From a virus: 64,000 bases of DNA. The notes under the pieces are model-generated. The model made no database searches and had not been told where the DNA came from. It saw nothing but the letters and a program-made list of their open reading frames with translations. A program made the translations under genes and the position numbers. This document shows, one piece after another, positions 2,160 through 64,000 of the stretch. Location of the stretch: positions 1 through 64,000 of IMG/VR virus record IMGVR_UViG_3300042402_003062; one strand, written 5' to 3'. The stretch's first letter is position 1. Every line of letters begins with the position of its first letter.

Positions 2160-2372
2160 CTATTCAGACTTAGAGGTTAATGACGCAAGTAGTTTTACAG
2201 TACGTCTTATCTCTTTGAGTATAGGTTTGTGTCCTAACTCATATTCTTCTTTAGCCTGCGTATATTGAGCAGGAGTCATACAGACTAATATCTGATTCCT
2301 GCCAACTACAAACTCATACCCTTTAACAATGTTGAGCCAGGCAATAAAATAATGATCGTTTAATTTTATCAC
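2160..2372 (-). CDS. Small protein between fibre genes, 70 aa
   Basis: A 70-residue protein starting MIKLNDHYFIAWLNIVKG, with no signal peptide and no motif I recognise. The C-terminal half is basic and helical (ILKEIRRTVKLLASLTSKSE). It lies only 2 nt after the 102-aa gene in the same operon, so it is probably a virion accessory or fibre chaperone. That role is inferred from position only. Confidence 0.55.
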   Translation of the reverse strand: MIKLNDHYFIAWLNIVKGYEFVVGRNQILVCMTPAQYTQAKEEYELGHKPILKEIRRTVKLLASLTSKSE

Positions 2373-2374
2373 AC

Positions 2375-2683
2375 TTACTCCTTATATGTTAAGTAGGAAA
2401 CTATACAATACATTCCCTTTACGTTATCTGAACTATCAAATAGCACATGTGTACCATTTGTAGTAACTGTAACTTCTTTAGATATCATACTAGACTCAGC
2501 ACTATCAAACAACAATGCCATGTTCCATACTATGTTGCCAAGAGCTAAGCTTGGGAGCAAAGCTGTACTATTTTCAGATATCAATATCTTCTCAGTGGTT
2601 CTAAGTAGTGAATTTTCTACGCTATTAGTACCATATGTAATCTGCTTACTGTCTTCTCTTATGAGTGCTCGAATTCTACTCAT
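2375..2683 (-). CDS. Small virion-associated protein, 102 aa
   Basis: Starts MSRIRALIREDSKQITYG and is rich in beta-prone residues, for example EVTVTTNGTHVLFDSSDNVKG. It lies between the 809-aa fibre gene and the 70-aa gene, all read leftward. Composition and place suggest a structural or fibre-attachment protein. No family is recognised. Confidence 0.55.
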   Translation of the reverse strand: MSRIRALIREDSKQITYGTNSVENSLLRTTEKILISENSTALLPSLALGNIVWNMALLFDSAESSMISKEVTVTTNGTHVLFDSSDNVKGMYCIVSYLTYKE

Positions 2684-2710
2684 TTAGGGGTTACTCCTTT
2701 AGTTGTTATA

Positions 2711-5140
2711 TTATAGTGCATCCTCAAAATCTGGAATGGTTCCTACGTCTATAGCTACCTGATCGTACAAGCTACTTGAAATAAGTATAGACTTGAATGA
2801 GTTTAGTCTATAGCCCATACTGTCTACTCTAACTTCTACCCTAATAGTTACAGGAGCAGACGGCAGTCCATTTCTGCCTATGGTCAAAAGCGTATTAAAC
2901 CCAGCTTCAAATGTAGTTCCATTAGGATACTCTAAAGATTTTACTTCCTGACCTATTATACTATTATCTGCTACATTTACTAATGTAAATGTTATATGCC
3001 TTTGGTTAGCAGTTAGAGCCACTAGTTCTATAGTGGATATGAAATTAAAACTGGCATCTCCTAGGAACGTAATTGTGTTGTTGGCGTTTACTGTCATTAT
3101 AGTAGCATTAGTACTTACTACATCTACATCCCATAGAAGTTGGGTTGGAGTGATTGGAATACTTGCAATAGCAGGATATGTGCTACTGCTGAAACTAGCT
3201 TGTGCAGATGACATATTTGCAATTGCTCTTGTGTTCACACTAATAGCATCTGTTAAATATGTTACTTTATAATCAATTTCTGATTTGGAGTAGGTATTAT
3301 TAAGTGCAACTTGTAAGTCCTCATCTGTGATCGCATCTGTTATTGAAAATCTGTTCCATGTACGTACAGTAATAACATCTCCAGTAGCATCAATAGGCAT
3401 GACTAAGATAAGCGTATTACCGCCTGTTAGATACCAGTCCGACTGACTAAGCAATCTACCATTATAAAAAGCTTCTATTGCAGCAGAGTCTGTGTAGTTA
3501 AATCCAAAGCTAGATTGGGCTTCAGTCCCAACGAACTCAAGCTCTACGAAGGCTGTAGCATTCCCTGCATTTAATAGTGCTGCAATGTTGTCAGCAATAG
3601 TATTTACATTCGCAATGTTATTTGCTACAGTTACAGTCTTGTCAATATTTATAGATACTGTTTCAATATCAGATTCAAGCTTTTGCAAGTTCTGCCCTAC
3701 AACATCTATCTCGCTTACCAACTCATTTAGGTCATCGGACACTGTTAAGATAGAAGCCATATTAGCAACCAAAGTATTTATGTTGTCTTTGTTGTCACTT
3801 ACATCCTGTATAACAGATATATTAGAAGAAACTGTAGTGATGTCTGTTGCTATAGCAATGGCACTTTCAACGTCACCCATAGATCCTACCAGTGATGTTA
3901 TATTATCAATGTTGTCAACAACTACTGTGATATTTGCATCTGCTGATGCAACAATATTTATATCATCAATGTTTGCGTACACTGAATCTAAAACAGACTT
4001 ATCTGAGTATAATGAATCTAGCTTAGACTTCATTGCATAAATAGTATCTAGTGTAGTCTTGTCCGAGTAAATTGATGTTAGACTTGCTAGTGAGGAATAT
4101 AAAGAATCTATCTTGTACGATATTGCATTTAATGCGTCTATAGCATCAGCAGATTCAGATACATTAACTACAGATGCTATGTTTGTTCCAACTTCTACTA
4201 CTGACTGCGCGATTGCAGATACGTTAGATATAGATGTAGCATTCGTAGCCACAATATCTATATTCGGTAGGTTATTTGCAACGTCAACAACAGACGCTAC
4301 GCTATTCGCAACCGTACTAATATCTATAGAGTTGTTAGCAACTGAAATGATATCACTTGAGATAGTAGATACATTATTTATGGAACCAATACTAGCAGCT
4401 ACGGTCTGCAATGAGCTAGATGCATCTGCTACAATATTTATATCTGCGATATTCTCTGACACAACAGATATATCTTCTACTATTAAAACCACGTTATGCA
4501 CTGTCGATGAAATGCTTGCTACAGTATTTACATCAGCAATATTGTCTGCAACAATAATTACATCATCAATATTCATACCAACTTTATTTATGTTACTTCC
4601 AGCAAGCATACTTAAATCATTAGCGACAGTAGTTATATCATAAAGATTTGCAGCTACATCTATTACTGAGATGATATTGGAGCCAGTTGCGACAATATCA
4701 ATTATATTTGTGCTGACAGTACCAAGAACAGCTATGACCTCAGCGTCAGCAACAACATCAATATTGGATAGAGTAGTCGGATTAGCCAACACTTCGATGC
4801 TATCTACTACATCAGCAACAAGAACAATGCTATCTGATATAGCAGCAACATTTTCTAGAAGTTCTATGTTATTAGCAACAACATCAATCTCTGATCTAAT
4901 TTTTTGCAGGTTTTGTCCTACAACGTCTACTTCTGATACTACTTCCTTCAGGTCTTCGGCTACAACTAATATATTCTGTATGTTTGTTGACACGTTTACG
5001 ATGTCTTCAACGTTATCTATTACTGAATTTATATGTGAAATATTATCTGCAACAGTTTTTACAGCATCATATTTACTATCAATCTCGCGAGCAATTGCAG
5101 TATCAGATGCATTTATAAGTGATGTTTGTCGTCTAGGCAT
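2711..5140 (-). CDS. Large tail fibre/appendage protein with NIxxV repeats, 809 aa
   Basis: Residues about 20-500 are a long array of short hydrophobic repeats of the form 'N-I-x-x-V-x-x-V-A' (VADNISHINSVIDNVEDIV, VAANLYDITTVANDL). This pattern is typical of elongated phage fibre shafts. Two copies of a VVGQNLQKIRSEIDVV/VVGQNLQKLESDIETV segment bracket the array. The C-terminal third switches to beta-rich sequence (FVELEFVGTEAQSSFGFNY, DVITVRTWNRFSITD) and is probably a T7-fibre-like head and attachment domain. The start overlaps the stop of the next gene upstream, so the two are coupled. By position it corresponds to N4 gp65/gp66-type tail genes (inference). Confidence 0.8.
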   Translation of the reverse strand: MPRRQTSLINASDTAIAREIDSKYDAVKTVADNISHINSVIDNVEDIVNVSTNIQNILVVAEDLKEVVSEVDVVGQNLQKIRSEIDVVANNIELLENVAAISDSIVLVADVVDSIEVLANPTTLSNIDVVADAEVIAVLGTVSTNIIDIVATGSNIISVIDVAANLYDITTVANDLSMLAGSNINKVGMNIDDVIIVADNIADVNTVASISSTVHNVVLIVEDISVVSENIADINIVADASSSLQTVAASIGSINNVSTISSDIISVANNSIDISTVANSVASVVDVANNLPNIDIVATNATSISNVSAIAQSVVEVGTNIASVVNVSESADAIDALNAISYKIDSLYSSLASLTSIYSDKTTLDTIYAMKSKLDSLYSDKSVLDSVYANIDDINIVASADANITVVVDNIDNITSLVGSMGDVESAIAIATDITTVSSNISVIQDVSDNKDNINTLVANMASILTVSDDLNELVSEIDVVGQNLQKLESDIETVSINIDKTVTVANNIANVNTIADNIAALLNAGNATAFVELEFVGTEAQSSFGFNYTDSAAIEAFYNGRLLSQSDWYLTGGNTLILVMPIDATGDVITVRTWNRFSITDAITDEDLQVALNNTYSKSEIDYKVTYLTDAISVNTRAIANMSSAQASFSSSTYPAIASIPITPTQLLWDVDVVSTNATIMTVNANNTITFLGDASFNFISTIELVALTANQRHITFTLVNVADNSIIGQEVKSLEYPNGTTFEAGFNTLLTIGRNGLPSAPVTIRVEVRVDSMGYRLNSFKSILISSSLYDQVAIDVGTIPDFEDAL

Positions 5141-58900: not shown

Positions 58901-59765
58901 TTTGTGTAGGAGTTTCTATCCCCTCAAGGAATACTTTGTACCCTGCTCCATCATACTTTTTGTTTAGCTCTGCTTTCATAGCAGTACGGAACTGATCTGC
59001 TTTATAGGCCAAGACATCATTATTCTTAATCGCATTTTTCATAAGTACGTGTTGCATTTCTTCAGCAAGAATTTCAGTATGTGTACGAAGTCTTGTATTA
59101 CCTATCATCAGACGAATCTTGCCATTTTGTGGATTAGCATCACCGAATGCTTTAGTCGATTCATCCAACGCTTTGAAGAATTCTACATTCAGATCAATAT
59201 CTTTTCCGGCTTCTTGCAGGACCCCCTCATACATCTTGAAAATGTTTCCTAAGTAATCTTTGAACTCTGGGGATAATTTATCCCCGTCTAAGGCATGCAC
59301 ATCAGCAATTAGGGTATCCATGTTTTCCAGCAATGTACCACTAATTTCATTCACCTTCAGCTTGGCTTTAAATTCTGTCCCTTCTTTGGCACTACCAAGG
59401 ACTTTCTTTTCCAATATTACATAGTGCGATCCATCAGTTGTTACACCATCTTTTAGGTTAATTTTATATGCTCCACCATTAATTGTCACAACATCTTCTG
59501 ATACTGCAGAAGCATTACGCACTGTCACAAATTTTGCGGTGTATCCATCAATTGTTTGGATCATTAATCGTTGCCCAACCAATTTTTGGCTATGGTCTAT
59601 AAACGAATGAATTCTTTGTGATGGCGCAAAATACTTCCCAGTTTTACGCTTACGCCCCTCTGCTTCAGCCATTCGTTTACCGTAATTTGCTCGATCAACT
59701 ACTCTGTCCAAGTAGCTTATATCATCATTATCTTTGATCAATTCATTTAGTGCAGCACATTCCAT
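55998..59765 (-). CDS. C-terminal vRNAP-associated virion protein, 1255 aa (split part of polyprotein)
   Basis: Abuts the 877-aa gene in frame, separated by a single TAA. Starts MECAALNELIKDNDDISYLD. Residues 235-239 EEMQH, in TEILAEEMQHVLMK, look like a degenerate HEXXH peptidase site (first His missing) within a polyvalent-protein-type domain. Long helical and coiled-coil stretches follow (residues about 370-800). The end (FTKYFFRILPAMARMVATKG and SLTGINVETPLDQFFDPIGT) looks like a conserved virion-protein tail. In N4, one 3500-aa chain carries the polymerase and a large C-terminal region needed for packaging; this ORF probably corresponds to that region. Likely ejected with DNA. Confidence 0.7.
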   Translation of the reverse strand: MECAALNELIKDNDDISYLDRVVDRANYGKRMAEAEGRKRKTGKYFAPSQRIHSFIDHSQKLVGQRLMIQTIDGYTAKFVTVRNASAVSEDVVTINGGAYKINLKDGVTTDGSHYVILEKKVLGSAKEGTEFKAKLKVNEISGTLLENMDTLIADVHALDGDKLSPEFKDYLGNIFKMYEGVLQEAGKDIDLNVEFFKALDESTKAFGDANPQNGKIRLMIGNTRLRTHTEILAEEMQHVLMKNAIKNNDVLAYKADQFRTAMKAELNKKYDGAGYKVFLEGIETPTQTQIDEAVGQWNYAFNNKDWPIDEFLAHATTNQALVRGLIGISTTEKLELLSPIEEKGRMWAKLWNQLVALVNKAYADIMLDGKSAHEHAVSMVHKLLEVEHRVQRLEDRSSYEKLLDTIARTDSKIAKITEEIDGEYKTYQEMIENTKRGKAKQIVAKLWNIKALAKARSFALQNNVFSSLAKNMKNPDIAKFYEMFRHSKEFVEKEVVAIRQRTAKNLDEVYGLGKVQKGAREAAKRVLIDADAQMLGDSAAIAEYLRDDAKIERELNESTAGLSPTVILDIDNTAELLVNNYSNSANVYTNAHQIAFERTANSTKETIANIDKAITLRALQKLSAEERAGALQALEQNPKGLDAAMELVREEQAMILEKAYKGNKLYVTKGAKQEYYTKDRKRYLVGEAEMKALSKAKIHNLGKDQELSEIAGQPIYVMIGDSLDTKYSEGLLKVVQLSNEGDSLKSMLMKLTEYTEEDVDVRLEMLRKRKGGAKSSLVPERSGMGEIYDYRIRVAHADKTLLMEMDNDIIATVAATVANLTHKQQAMLSNYASLAYLKRFHQMYKTDAEHKFVEIGPRSEGKFKEYWDMLPYYIKSEINKKKEPLMVTETMLTDFFGYHDASIINAPWIRDSKKRQLVAKKFEQIVMELLRNWKLQIVAFTGSTVVGNNISNMFIALQYTSFKNPLTYMNKYRQVWGMMNDYQKLRRERIDLDLKRRAGEKGLDRRIAALDASMRANPVHVIVEDGQYNVIFEDLNTSYFDKEGIIEGKINEMLKKAEDKRGRNILKSVVDVIYLRKDTAIHDSIMKATTYSDAINKMIILMDAKEQAVKLRNRGESNQVIGELLFGATEKEMEVFFKSGDIPKSWLSHMDGLHVNYGYLDNKYIKYANDMGGLVFTKYFFRILPAMARMVATKGLTVAMTETAQSLTGINVETPLDQFFDPIGTLSHKTSLWTRPENIFGTLFEGGLVRAVIE

Positions 59766-59780
59766 TTAACAGCCTTCTTT
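59757..59780 (-). repeat. Stop-start junction 2 (KEGC-stop-MEC)
   Basis: Minus strand AAAGAAGGCTGTTAAATGGAATGT. Matches junction 1 at all but two or three positions. It encodes K-E-G-C, TAA, then M-E-C. GAAGG doubles as the ribosome site for the next ORF. Confidence 0.7.
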
Positions 59781-62399
59781 GAGCAATTTTTGCACGGCTT
59801 CATTCTCCGTACGTTCTCGGTCTTTGAGGTGAATTGTACCCATGTTTTGTTTAGCTTTGGCTTCCGTAACCATCTGATCTTTTACTTGAACATCAGACAT
59901 CACAGTTTTAGTAAGTGCATCAAATGCTTCTTTATTTGCTATACCTATACCAAACTTAGTACCCTTTACAGCAAAGCTTATATGTGGGTATGGATATGGG
60001 AATTTAGTTCCTAGCTCTTTGTTCACTGCGTCAATTAGGGCATTTACCCCAGGAGCATCTACTAACTGAATCATAGCCTCTTCATGTACCATATGTTTAC
60101 CTAAGTCTTGATTGGCCCAATCTTTAAACATTTCTATATCTCGCTCTATTTTGTATACTTCAGGACGCTCTGTATAGCTTAAGTCTGCTTTCTCTATAAG
60201 CTTTTGCACTATTCCAGCCTTTTTTGGGTCCTCTTCAAATATTTTCTGCAATTGCTTACCTTCAGGAAAACCCCACACTGTTAAGTGGGTCTCTTCTTTT
60301 GGAGTAAATCCAGCAGGAATATCTTTAGCAGCAGAAGGGATTTTTACTTTTATCAACAAGGATTTAGACTTTGGACTAAATCGTGGGCCTTCTGCTTTTT
60401 TCTCAATTGCTTTCACTAGCTCATAAATTTTATCAGCGTAGACTTGACCTTCTACACCAAACAATACTTGTTTAATTTTGTCAATCACACGTTGTAGCAA
60501 ACTACGCATATCATTTCCAATTAACTTCTCTAACTCTACCTTTACATCTGGCTCAGCCATTAGAACCGCTACATTTTCTTGCAACAATCCTAACTCACCA
60601 TTTTTACTATCCCAAGTTAATCGCTCGTTAAGCATATACACATCTATGCCTTCTACTCCACCACGCACTACCTTATCAAGTTTGCTACGTACTTGAGCCA
60701 TCATCTTGCCAAGTCGTACCACATCTGTATCCTTTTGATTCGACTCCAGCCAACGAGCTGTTTTATCATGCGCTATCTCATGGGCCAAGTATACAGCACG
60801 TTCTCCGGCTGTTGCATCTTTGTCAAGTGTTATCGTACCATCACTCCAGTGGAACATATTCCCTTCTTCTACTGTCACATCTGGATTTTCCGTTAGATAT
60901 GCTTTGTTATTAGCTTCTATTACAGCAATCTCTTCTTCAGTTATATTTTGCTCAAATGTTTCACCTGCCCCAAGAGCCATTTCATAATTACTAGTAGCTG
61001 CTTGCGATGCTTCTTGGGCAATTGCAGCAATTTCAGCTCTTGTCATTGACATTAGCTTTTGTAACAATTCCTTTTCTACTTTAGTTACCTTTTTAGAATC
61101 AAATGTTAATGTTTTTTTCACGACGCGTTTTAATGAGTTTAGCTCTATCTTATTTTTAAGCAGTTGCTGCCAAAATTCTCCAGACTCACTAACTACCGCT
61201 CTATCTCGATTTCTTTTAAATGGAGTACCATCTGCATTTACTTCTCCATAAGATTTGTCAATTACATAGCTCCACTCGGCTTCGTATTCTTCTAGCATCT
61301 TCTCTAGATCACTAACTTTTAATTTAGTATTGTCCCCAGCAAATACTTCCATAATTGGACCTGTAGCTAGAATAGGTTCTACTTCAACTATACTAACAGG
61401 AGTTTCAGAAGTGCTTCTTTCTTTTTGTAACTTATCTCTAATCTGCATCAATAATTCTGGAAATTTATCTTTCCATATTTTATCTGCCACATTATGAGTT
61501 AAGTCTGCAGTTCCTGTACTAAGTAATAACTTGGTTGCTTCAGGATTTTGTTCAAATGAACGCAACATTATTGCAGGCATAAGTGTTTTAGTATTCCAGT
61601 TATTTATAGTTTTAGTACCTTTAGTACCTCGTGCAACTAATCCACCGTTGTTCCAATTTTTATTATATACATCCTCTTCAAGTCCAGTCCCACTCTTTAG
61701 TGACTGATAGGCATGCTCTACACTCTGAAATGTGCGACCTTGCATAGTAAATGGACGAACTGCTAAGTTACTTAACTCTTCATACCCATTTTTATCTTTT
61801 GAGTACACATTAATAGATTCTACTGGGGCTACTGAAGGCTCTACAACAGTCTGAGGCACTATCTTTAGTGCACCAATTTTATCTTTATTCTGATTTATCG
61901 CATAAAGCAATACTAGGGCATGGGATAATGGTTGCCCTACAGCAGTTCCTTTATAGTATAACTTTTTCTTACCATCCAGAACGGCTCTAATCTGTGGTAT
62001 AGCTCGGAATGTTTTCTGCCTAGCCTCTTCCAAGGCTGTTAAGTCCCCGGTGTAGCTAGCAGGTACAATATTCCGTACCAACCAATCATAGTACATAGCC
62101 GATAGATCTCCATCGGATTTAGTATTAACATTAGTACGTTCAAATGGATTTCCAAAGAATGAGTTTGGCCCGCGCATTCCCCACACATCATTTGTTGCTT
62201 TTTTAGGTCCACCTACAATCATCTCTGCGTATGGAGCCACAGCTTTTGTTAATGCCTCAATCATCGCCGAATACGATTTATCTTTGATAATTTTTGGAAA
62301 GCTATTATCTTTAATTTCTTGGACACGTTTTTGTATCTCAGGGTACGCTTCCAATGCTAGGATCAATTTATCCACATACTCAGGTATTCTGCATGCCAT
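59766..62399 (-). CDS. Polyvalent virion protein: DUF4326-like, NADAR-like, HEXXH and 2H-phosphoesterase-like modules, 877 aa
   Basis: Modules in order: (1) about 68-175, GNPFE...YDWLV...LYYKGTAVGQPLSHALVL, resembling DUF4326. (2) About 196-327, INVYSKDKNGYEELSNLAVR and GRTFQSVEHAYQSLK, the NADAR/YbiA signature (SVEHAYQ at 226-232). (3) About 340-500, helical. (4) AVYLAHEIAHDKTA, an intact HEXXH zinc site (HEIAH near 539). (5) About 690-830, HLTVWGF (H705) and PHISFAVKG (H806), the paired HxT/HxS of 2H phosphoesterases. It abuts vRNAP upstream and the 1255-aa gene downstream in frame. Such polyvalent proteins enter the cell with phage DNA and act on host defence; that role is inferred. Confidence 0.7.
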   Translation of the reverse strand: MACRIPEYVDKLILALEAYPEIQKRVQEIKDNSFPKIIKDKSYSAMIEALTKAVAPYAEMIVGGPKKATNDVWGMRGPNSFFGNPFERTNVNTKSDGDLSAMYYDWLVRNIVPASYTGDLTALEEARQKTFRAIPQIRAVLDGKKKLYYKGTAVGQPLSHALVLLYAINQNKDKIGALKIVPQTVVEPSVAPVESINVYSKDKNGYEELSNLAVRPFTMQGRTFQSVEHAYQSLKSGTGLEEDVYNKNWNNGGLVARGTKGTKTINNWNTKTLMPAIMLRSFEQNPEATKLLLSTGTADLTHNVADKIWKDKFPELLMQIRDKLQKERSTSETPVSIVEVEPILATGPIMEVFAGDNTKLKVSDLEKMLEEYEAEWSYVIDKSYGEVNADGTPFKRNRDRAVVSESGEFWQQLLKNKIELNSLKRVVKKTLTFDSKKVTKVEKELLQKLMSMTRAEIAAIAQEASQAATSNYEMALGAGETFEQNITEEEIAVIEANNKAYLTENPDVTVEEGNMFHWSDGTITLDKDATAGERAVYLAHEIAHDKTARWLESNQKDTDVVRLGKMMAQVRSKLDKVVRGGVEGIDVYMLNERLTWDSKNGELGLLQENVAVLMAEPDVKVELEKLIGNDMRSLLQRVIDKIKQVLFGVEGQVYADKIYELVKAIEKKAEGPRFSPKSKSLLIKVKIPSAAKDIPAGFTPKEETHLTVWGFPEGKQLQKIFEEDPKKAGIVQKLIEKADLSYTERPEVYKIERDIEMFKDWANQDLGKHMVHEEAMIQLVDAPGVNALIDAVNKELGTKFPYPYPHISFAVKGTKFGIGIANKEAFDALTKTVMSDVQVKDQMVTEAKAKQNMGTIHLKDRERTENEAVQKLLKEGC

Positions 62400-62414
62400 T
62401 TAACAACCTTCTTT
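62391..62414 (-). repeat. Stop-start junction 1 (KEGC-stop-MAC)
   Basis: Minus strand AAAGAAGGTTGTTAAATGGCATGC. TAA at 62402-62400 is followed at once by ATG. K-E-G-C ends vRNAP and M-A-C starts the next ORF. Nearly identical to junction 2. Confidence 0.7.
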
Positions 62415-64000
62415 TAAATTCTCAAACATATCTTTAAATAGTGTTTTACCTATAGTAGTGCCAGTCATTTCGCTAGCAACTTGCTCCATTATTTTTCTAG
62501 GCCCTTTATCTCCACTTGTGAATAGATCAATAGCAAGAGCTCTAATTTCTTTAGCCATTTTAGCACCATCTTGCTTAACAGGAGCCTCCGTAGCAACTTC
62601 CTGCACAATACCAGCTCTTACGCTATCTACTAGCCATTCAAGCCCTTCTAGCACAGCAGTATCAGCTCCTTCTTCAGCAAATACTGCGTATCGTTTATCA
62701 ACTAACTCTTCTGTAGTCTTACCTTTAGCTTCATAACCTTTAATGTCTCCGGCAGCAGCGTATTGATTGACTACCAATTCTTGCTCAACCAAGTCACGTC
62801 TAGCAGTGTCTATGCTCCGTAGGGTATGAATCACATCTCCTACCAAGTCTAATACTGACTCACCTTCTTCTACCGGTCCAAGTATACGCTCAAGGTCACC
62901 AAGTACTTGTGAAGCCATTTCAGGATCCATTTCCAAGCCTTCTCGTTTACCAAGCATGAACTCCATTTTTTCAACGGCTTTTCCAAGCATACTATGTGTC
63001 ATATTAATATCGTAGAACGACTCATTCATTTTTTGGAGTTGTTTTGTGTTCTTTGTTAAATCTGTACCCATCATCAGTGCATCATAGATATTCAATACAG
63101 CCATTACATGCCCTGTTATCATAACTGACCCATCCGCAGCATGTACTGTTGTTACACCAATTGCTCCAACGTTAGCAACCAGCTCTTTGATTGCTTGATT
63201 ATAATTTCTTGAGTACCCTGTTCCACTTTGGAAGGTGCTTGTGTTAATTGTTACGGAAATCTGGTTGGACTCACCTTCCTTATTCTCTGTTTTCCAATAA
63301 TCTACCAAACCGCCTTCAATCGCTGCTTCAGTAGCGTAATAGGTACCTTCTGAAAGCATCTCTGACTTAATATCAGTTAGCTCTGCAATTGTAAGTTCAC
63401 CCATTACTCCTTTTACAGAAGTTTCTCTTCCAGCAAGTTTATCCTTCACTTTTTTGTTAAAGTTCATTTTAAAGATTGTATAGTTAACTTCTTCTACAGT
63501 TTGGAGCGCTTTTCTAAACTCAATAACCGGTCCAAATGTTGATTTGAAGCTCTCTGCAAACAAATCTCCAAGCTTTTCATCAATTGCTTTAGTAAGTAGT
63601 CCTACTTGATACTCACTCAAGTACGCATATAGCTTTTTCTCATCATCGTTTAACTCATCTTCATTGAGTTTTGTAGATATAAGCTCACCATCTTTTATAG
63701 CGTATTTCACATACGTTGGTTTAATATCTTTTAATCCAGAAATTTCTAGCAAAGTTTCTAATTTACCTCTTGCCAATCCACCAGGAATATAGCTATTACC
63801 AACAATCAGTGACTGCGCCATTGCTTCAGTAATGTTCTTAAGCCCTGCACCATATATAAAGATCATTACTGGGTTTTTCATGAAATTTCTCCATGCCCCA
63901 CCAATAACATCATCGATTTGTGCATGAGCTTTTTTGTCAAGCAGTGTGTTTAGAATTTTTAAAGGCGCTTCATAAATATCTTTACCTTTATTTTCTTTGA
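62400..64000 (-). CDS. Virion RNA polymerase (vRNAP), catalytic C-terminal part; continues beyond window edge
   Basis: Open from the window edge; Met 63881 is internal. Motif B is AWRNFMKNPVMIFIYGAGLK. Its K and Y are eight residues apart and Y is followed by G, exactly as in T7 RNAP (K631, Y639-G640). Motif C is VLNIYDALMMG (Asp at residue 267 counting from Met 63881), with Tyr replacing the usual His of HDS. Upstream motifs lie outside the window. This gene ends in NLKEGC about 225 residues after motif C, where N4 gp50 carries on for about 1400 residues. The enzyme is packaged and injected to transcribe early genes. Confidence 0.85.
   Translation of the reverse strand, partial: KENKGKDIYEAPLKILNTLLDKKAHAQIDDVIGGAWRNFMKNPVMIFIYGAGLKNITEAMAQSLIVGNSYIPGGLARGKLETLLEISGLKDIKPTYVKYAIKDGELISTKLNEDELNDDEKKLYAYLSEYQVGLLTKAIDEKLGDLFAESFKSTFGPVIEFRKALQTVEEVNYTIFKMNFNKKVKDKLAGRETSVKGVMGELTIAELTDIKSEMLSEGTYYATEAAIEGGLVDYWKTENKEGESNQISVTINTSTFQSGTGYSRNYNQAIKELVANVGAIGVTTVHAADGSVMITGHVMAVLNIYDALMMGTDLTKNTKQLQKMNESFYDINMTHSMLGKAVEKMEFMLGKREGLEMDPEMASQVLGDLERILGPVEEGESVLDLVGDVIHTLRSIDTARRDLVEQELVVNQYAAAGDIKGYEAKGKTTEELVDKRYAVFAEEGADTAVLEGLEWLVDSVRAGIVQEVATEAPVKQDGAKMAKEIRALAIDLFTSGDKGPRKIMEQVASEMTGTTIGKTLFKDMFENLKEGC

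Follow-up and report, generated by a model that had tools for sequence, protein, structure and literature searches.

The window (the whole stretch of DNA analysed here: 64,000 nucleotides, positions 1 to 64,000 of the 69,557-base virus record IMGVR_UViG_3300042402_003062) is predicted from its sequence to encode one N4-type virion RNA polymerase (vRNAP) as three proteins, with the middle piece lying between the two vRNAP parts. Cysteines in the three proteins are confined to the ends that face one another, a pattern that we regard as a stronger finding than the module content of the middle piece. A preliminary description of this DNA had captured that content largely correctly, but missed the split of the vRNAP and the cysteine pattern. 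We propose that the pieces of the split vRNAP form a train linked by disulfides between terminal cysteines, that the train is taken apart in the host cytoplasm and that the middle piece is counter-defence cargo; we give this explanation as a whole a probability of about 0.6.

The three genes are consecutive (Table 1) and encode a core of 2,569 amino acids, a middle piece of 877 and a C-terminal piece of 1,255, together 4,701 amino acids. The complete core was read from an identical contig (L003, 2291–10000), and the middle open reading frame is real, with an ATG start and a TAA stop. Both junctions read TAA-ATG. The polyprotein proposed earlier is therefore replaced by three genes, each with its own start and stop codons. 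The virion RNA polymerase family phrog_2206 matches both flanking reading frames (E = 9 × 10−19 and 8 × 10−56), at profile positions 1573–2023 for the gene upstream of the middle piece and 2335–3371 for the gene downstream, and homology to N4 vRNAP extends over the RNAP and C-terminal domains (HMM, E = 1 × 10−81). The vRNAP neighbourhood originally described for the middle gene is thus borne out, but the gene sits between two vRNAP parts and not beside a complete vRNAP.

Table 1 Features of the split vRNAP locus, in window positions
Feature	Position	Strand	Remarks
vRNAP core gene (N-terminal domain and RNAP domain), 3′ part in window	62400..64000	-	phrog_2206 match; full gene via L003
Core terminal Cys codon TGT, immediately 5′ of TAA	62403..62405	-	Position calculated from junction sequence
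AAAGAAGG, ribosome-binding-like sequence of middle gene, doubling as K-E-G codons	62407..62414	-	
Middle piece P0001, 877 aa (DUF4326-like, NADAR, HExxH zincin, 2H)	59766..62399	-	
Cys3 codon TGC of middle piece	62391..62393	-	
DUF4326-like module, residues about 68–180	61860..62198	-	Through relatives; AF2 model of low confidence
NADAR module, residues about 196–328	61416..61814	-	Pfam, PHROG, YbiA structure, core residues
Zincin-like module, residues about 488–650	60450..60938	-	HEIAH, residues 540–544, at 60768–60782
2H phosphoesterase-like module, residues about 674–830	59910..60380	-	HLTV at 705, HISF at 806
Cys877 (final residue) codon TGT of middle piece	59769..59771	-	
vRNAP C-terminal piece (C1+C2 of N4 vRNAP), 1,255 aa	55998..59765	-	phrog_2206 match
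Cys3 codon TGT of C-terminal piece	59757..59759	-	

The 4,701 residues contain four cysteines: the last residue of the core (2,569), residues 3 and 877 (the last) of the middle piece, and residue 3 of the C-terminal piece. Two relatives whose C-terminal pieces are 64% and 56% identical to that of the window place their cysteines identically around different middle proteins (661 and 430 amino acids); in a full middle-piece alignment of three relatives, the payload halves could not be aligned. The same rule is obeyed by five further relatives with 24–30% overall identity in the core. L012 has no middle protein, one joint and two cysteines (counting that of an MSC start). The vRNAP of Alteromonas phage AD45-P1 consists of two genes, with a cysteine third from the end of one and at residue 4 of the next; this locus (L016:27399–39123; NC_021532 90623–102347) is annotated as a ‘potential frameshift’, but both genes are intact. 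The single-chain vRNAPs of N4, nACB1 and phi50-12 contain no cysteine at all, and the N4 ejection proteins gp51 (644 amino acids) and gp52 (150 amino acids) are likewise cysteine-free (L015 15127–17524).

A wider survey, in which chains were built by adjacency and blind to cysteine, yielded 35 non-redundant split chains with 140,442 residues. These hold 107 cysteines, compared with about 888 expected from the 0.63% rate in other reading frames of the same contigs, and 104 of the 107 fall inside 8-residue segments facing a joint, which make up 0.6% of the residues. Cysteine is present on both sides of the break at all 51 joints and absent from the outer N-termini (0 of 32) and outer C-termini (0), which argues for a pairing of consecutive ends. 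Of the 51 joints, seven were located through cysteine prediction, and the remaining joints are independent of it; where an N-terminal cysteine was unaccounted for, a partner was predicted upstream, and in each of the six cases checked that partner ended in cysteine. The exceptions are single internal cysteines in L032, L062 and L066. Unsplit chains are cysteine-free in 10 of 11 cases; L056 is unsplit, yet its C-terminus reads SCDC. Two apparent breaks without cysteines (L036 and L068) are single-base contig frameshifts. The contig of L068 also carries a NADAR module with 51% identity (L076), within what seems to be a single-chain vRNAP broken by a contig frameshift. In L049, the partner of a piece ending in cysteine lies 1.6 kb away, beyond an opposite-strand reading frame of 258 amino acids (L049:12310–13086), and the joint cysteines are retained.

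A tree of the RNAP domain implies at least five changes between split and unsplit states; for the unsplit group, well-supported branches require at least three of them. Unsplit L044, which lacks the junction segment, is placed beside split L055 and L058. The end branches of the tree are long, which makes exact placement uncertain. The breaks map to N4 residues of about 898–952 and 2183, at or close to the domain linkers of N4 vRNAP at 907–1006 and 2102–2123 (PMC12633501).

As an out-of-sample test, eighty NADAR relatives were collected via the NADAR sequence alone. Many of these sit in giant, mostly cysteine-free reading frames; where such a frame had a terminal cysteine and a readable next gene, the next gene had a cysteine at residue 3–5 in 26 of 26 cases. 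The next-gene rule is absent from standalone NADARs. Among the giant frames, L083, L086, L095 and L101 are N4-type, and others belong to crass-type RNAP systems, judged by similarity to crAss001 gp50 and phi14:2 gp77; we take the crass virion RNAP to be of another type than the N4 enzyme. In the cultured phage phi14:2, gp78 has a cysteine only at its last residue, gp77 at positions 3 and −2, and gp76 at 3, and all three are annotated as virion proteins by tandem mass spectrometry. In crAss001, cysteines occur at −3 in gp47 (plus strand), at 5, −9 and one internal position in gp50, and at 5 in gp49 (both minus strand). These crAss001 proteins were found in virions by mass spectrometry, and the virion tail contains inter-protein disulfides (PMC10172136); the terminal cysteines go unmentioned in that 2023 study of the virion. 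The phages cr111_1 and DAC17 keep the first, middle and last grammar; their middle pieces also contain internal cysteines, and the last piece of DAC17 contains a single internal one. DAC17_56, like crAss001 gp47, is encoded on the strand opposite to its partner pieces. By contrast, cr116_1 is irregular, with one piece that has a terminal and no initial cysteine. Some pieces of the gut crass phages L155, L161 and L163 contain internal cysteines and retain the terminal ones; the internal cysteines are perhaps tied to anaerobic hosts.

Within the middle protein, the DUF4326-like module precedes the NADAR module, the reverse of the order first given. The assignment to NADAR is well supported overall: PF08719 matches residues 201–309 at E = 1.1 × 10−5 and 26.2 bits (below the curated cut-off of 35.1), PHROG 1017 matches at E = 8 × 10−9 and the YbiA structure 2b3w at E = 2.7 × 10−5, and the core residues (LSN, SVEHAYQ.K and others) are present in the window protein and in over 30 relatives. 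The putative DUF4326-like identity is supported only through relatives. The region aligns with part of L101 at Z = 11.8 and is probably homologous to it; the best Pfam match of that L101 segment is PF14216 (E = 0.013, under the cut-off), and PF14216 is among the weak matches of four of six relatives, all under the cut-off. Direct comparison did not recover the module named in the preliminary description: PF14216 gave no Pfam match at E ≤ 1 to the whole window protein or the excised domain and none across the window's own virus record, an HMM built on four divergent DUF4326-like segments did not recover the window protein, and the AF2 model (pLDDT 59) was too weak for a structure search.

The zinc site recognized earlier is intact, and H540, E541, H544 and a downstream glutamate are invariant in five middle pieces. 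A low-confidence model of the region gave a top Z of 6.7, with lethal-factor zincins at Z = 6.6 and N4 vRNAP C1 (9pnr) at Z = 5.4 over 155 residues. At residues 230–240 of the window's C-terminal piece, the zincin site is degenerate and reads AEEMQH in place of HExxH. The 2H module shares 53% identity with a module in L041, a distant split vRNAP that keeps both HLTV and HISF, and neither these HxT/HxS residues nor the SVEH-type residues, whose loss had been named as a possible objection, are lost in relatives. Fold comparison of the 2H module gave a weak match to a phosphodiesterase of phage BCSR5 (Z = 4.7), and Foldseek gave weak matches to poxvirus cGAMP phosphodiesterase, LigT and CPDase, none below E = 0.04; no entry named Acb1 is among the fold matches listed, which is uninformative either way on a relationship. 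With at least two effector-type domains in one chain and a virion gene context, the middle piece has the defining features of a polyvalent protein.

The middle slot holds different proteins in different phages: NADAR alone in L009, zincins in L061 and L062, and a RecD/Pif1-like SF1 helicase carrying an HExxH region at its N-terminus in L045:3370–5820, L046:4397–7429 and L052:3370–5997. By eye, the L014 middle protein appears to be SLOG-like plus DUF4326-like, and the N-terminal part of the L005 middle protein (L005:8016–10001) looks ART-like, with no Pfam match. We consider it somewhat more probable than its opposite that N4- and crass-type phages thread such polypeptides through the tail as a reducible, disulfide-linked train, with the middle slot as an exchangeable cargo bay whose candidate contents would be NADAR, ART-like, SLOG-like, 2H, RecD-like helicase and zincin modules.

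In the explanation that we favour, the vRNAP would be made as separate polypeptides, cut at flexible interdomain linkers, with a cargo protein occupying the cut between the RNAP and C-terminal domains and the bodies of the pieces kept cysteine-free, as in N4. At each cut, the upstream piece would have a cysteine at its C-terminus and the downstream piece would have one at residue 3–5, and a disulfide between them, formed in the virion or the oxidising periplasm, would allow the pieces to be ejected as a single chain in fixed order. The reducing host cytoplasm would then break the chain, releasing polymerase and cargo. For a pair of cysteines in chains that are otherwise free of them and cross an oxidising periplasm, a disulfide would be the simplest chemistry. 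Phage assembly occurs in the reducing cytoplasm, and anaerobes are among the hosts of crass phages, both of which count against a disulfide; the internal cysteines of gut crass phages, the irregularity of cr116_1 and the SCDC end of L056 also count against the train. The cargo of the window would be a polyvalent protein (DUF4326-like, NADAR, zincin and 2H) and would most likely act on ADP-ribose or cyclic-nucleotide signals of host defence. Such counter-defence is plausible, and is suggested by the known or proposed roles of NADAR and DUF4326 (PMC9503650) and of 2H enzymes. A separation task like that of the reducing cytoplasm was assigned to the zincin by Iyer et al. (PMC5512222).

The positional data would be equally compatible with pairing of the terminal cysteines by a metal (Zn or Fe–S) or by a non-covalent or other covalent contact, as they show the pairing of consecutive ends and not its chemistry. 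We find this unlikely: there are two cysteines per joint, and two-piece chains (L012, L030, AD45 and others) hold a single pair, not enough to build a Cys4 site from one chain alone; moreover, an unsystematic look at the ends noted no conserved histidines. Less likely still is that the middle protein is an ordinary early counter-defence enzyme, made in the infected cell and not injected. In phages, NADAR genes are frequently early ones (PMC9503650), and standalone NADARs exist, but here the gene lies between vRNAP pieces and its product has a cysteine-free body with cysteines at both ends; these features, and the crass equivalents in virions, strengthen the original proposal that the protein is virion-delivered.

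Readings that place the pattern in the DNA are far less probable. Little or no space separates the genes at many joints (TAATG or TAA-ATG), and a Shine–Dalgarno-like sequence lies within the 3′ end of the preceding gene, as would suit cysteine codons acting as a nucleotide signal for translational coupling, readthrough or frameshifting. However, the joints use TGT and TGC, all three frame relations, all three stop codons and gaps of −11 to 1,626 nt, which argues for selection on the protein, and the opposite-strand cases (the gene between the L049 pieces, crAss001 gp47 and DAC17_56) already largely refute this reading. Two related candidates were rejected: joining of the three genes by readthrough or frameshifting, as the genes do not share a frame and an opposite-strand gene intervenes at one joint, and the junction motif AAAGAAGGNTGTTAAATG as a special signal, as only the two joints of the window match it (about 0.4 expected by chance) and it is lost in relatives. 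Least probable of all is a reading of the split vRNAPs as broken genes or as frameshifts introduced by assembly. The AD45 annotation and the real single-base frameshifts in L036 and L068 lend this some colour, but the split recurs across dozens of lineages, start codons are present and the ends conserved, cargo genes lie intact inside the break, and crass pieces are detected in virions.

The terminal-cysteine grammar would offer a simple answer to how a 3,500-residue polymerase passes through a channel of ~35 Å and how injected multi-domain proteins later separate, with reduction-labile joints in place of cleavage by a protease. Apparent frameshifts are recognized by it as genuine split genes, and it provides a sequence rule (cysteine-free body, cysteine ends) for finding more injected cargo, anti-defence candidates included. 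The terminal cysteines are not mentioned in the literature that we searched, which lacks key subscription articles such as the one on the crass-like RNAP structure, and they may have been described before.

Among known systems, N4 gp50 (Schitoviridae) shares with the window homologous RNAP and C-terminal regions, a cysteine-free body, an HExxH C1 domain and the flexible linkers near which the cuts fall, but it is one 3,500-residue chain with no cysteine, whereas the window has three chains, four terminal cysteines and extra cargo. The cysteine-free body of N4 vRNAP goes back to Kazmierczak 2002 (cited in PMC2784036) and is also seen in PMC3715699; the lack of cysteine in N4-like vRNAPs is published. 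Polyvalent proteins (Iyer et al. 2017) similarly combine several effector-type domains and a zincin in a virion-linked protein, and that study describes fusions of N4-type RNAPs with MPTase and ART domains, as well as 2H in phage types, with no occurrence of NADAR (PMC5512222); in the window, by contrast, the domains are spread over separate cysteine-ended proteins instead of one chain. Crassvirales (crAss001 gp47, gp49 and gp50; phi14:2 gp76–78) have three giant virion pieces with the same first, middle and last cysteine placement, and differ in the internal cysteines that some pieces of gut members contain. Finally, NADAR and DUF4326 co-occur in viruses, where processing of ADP-ribose derivatives has been proposed (PMC9503650); outside RNA-virus polyproteins they are typically standalone, whereas here they are embedded in vRNAP cargo, across two RNAP types.
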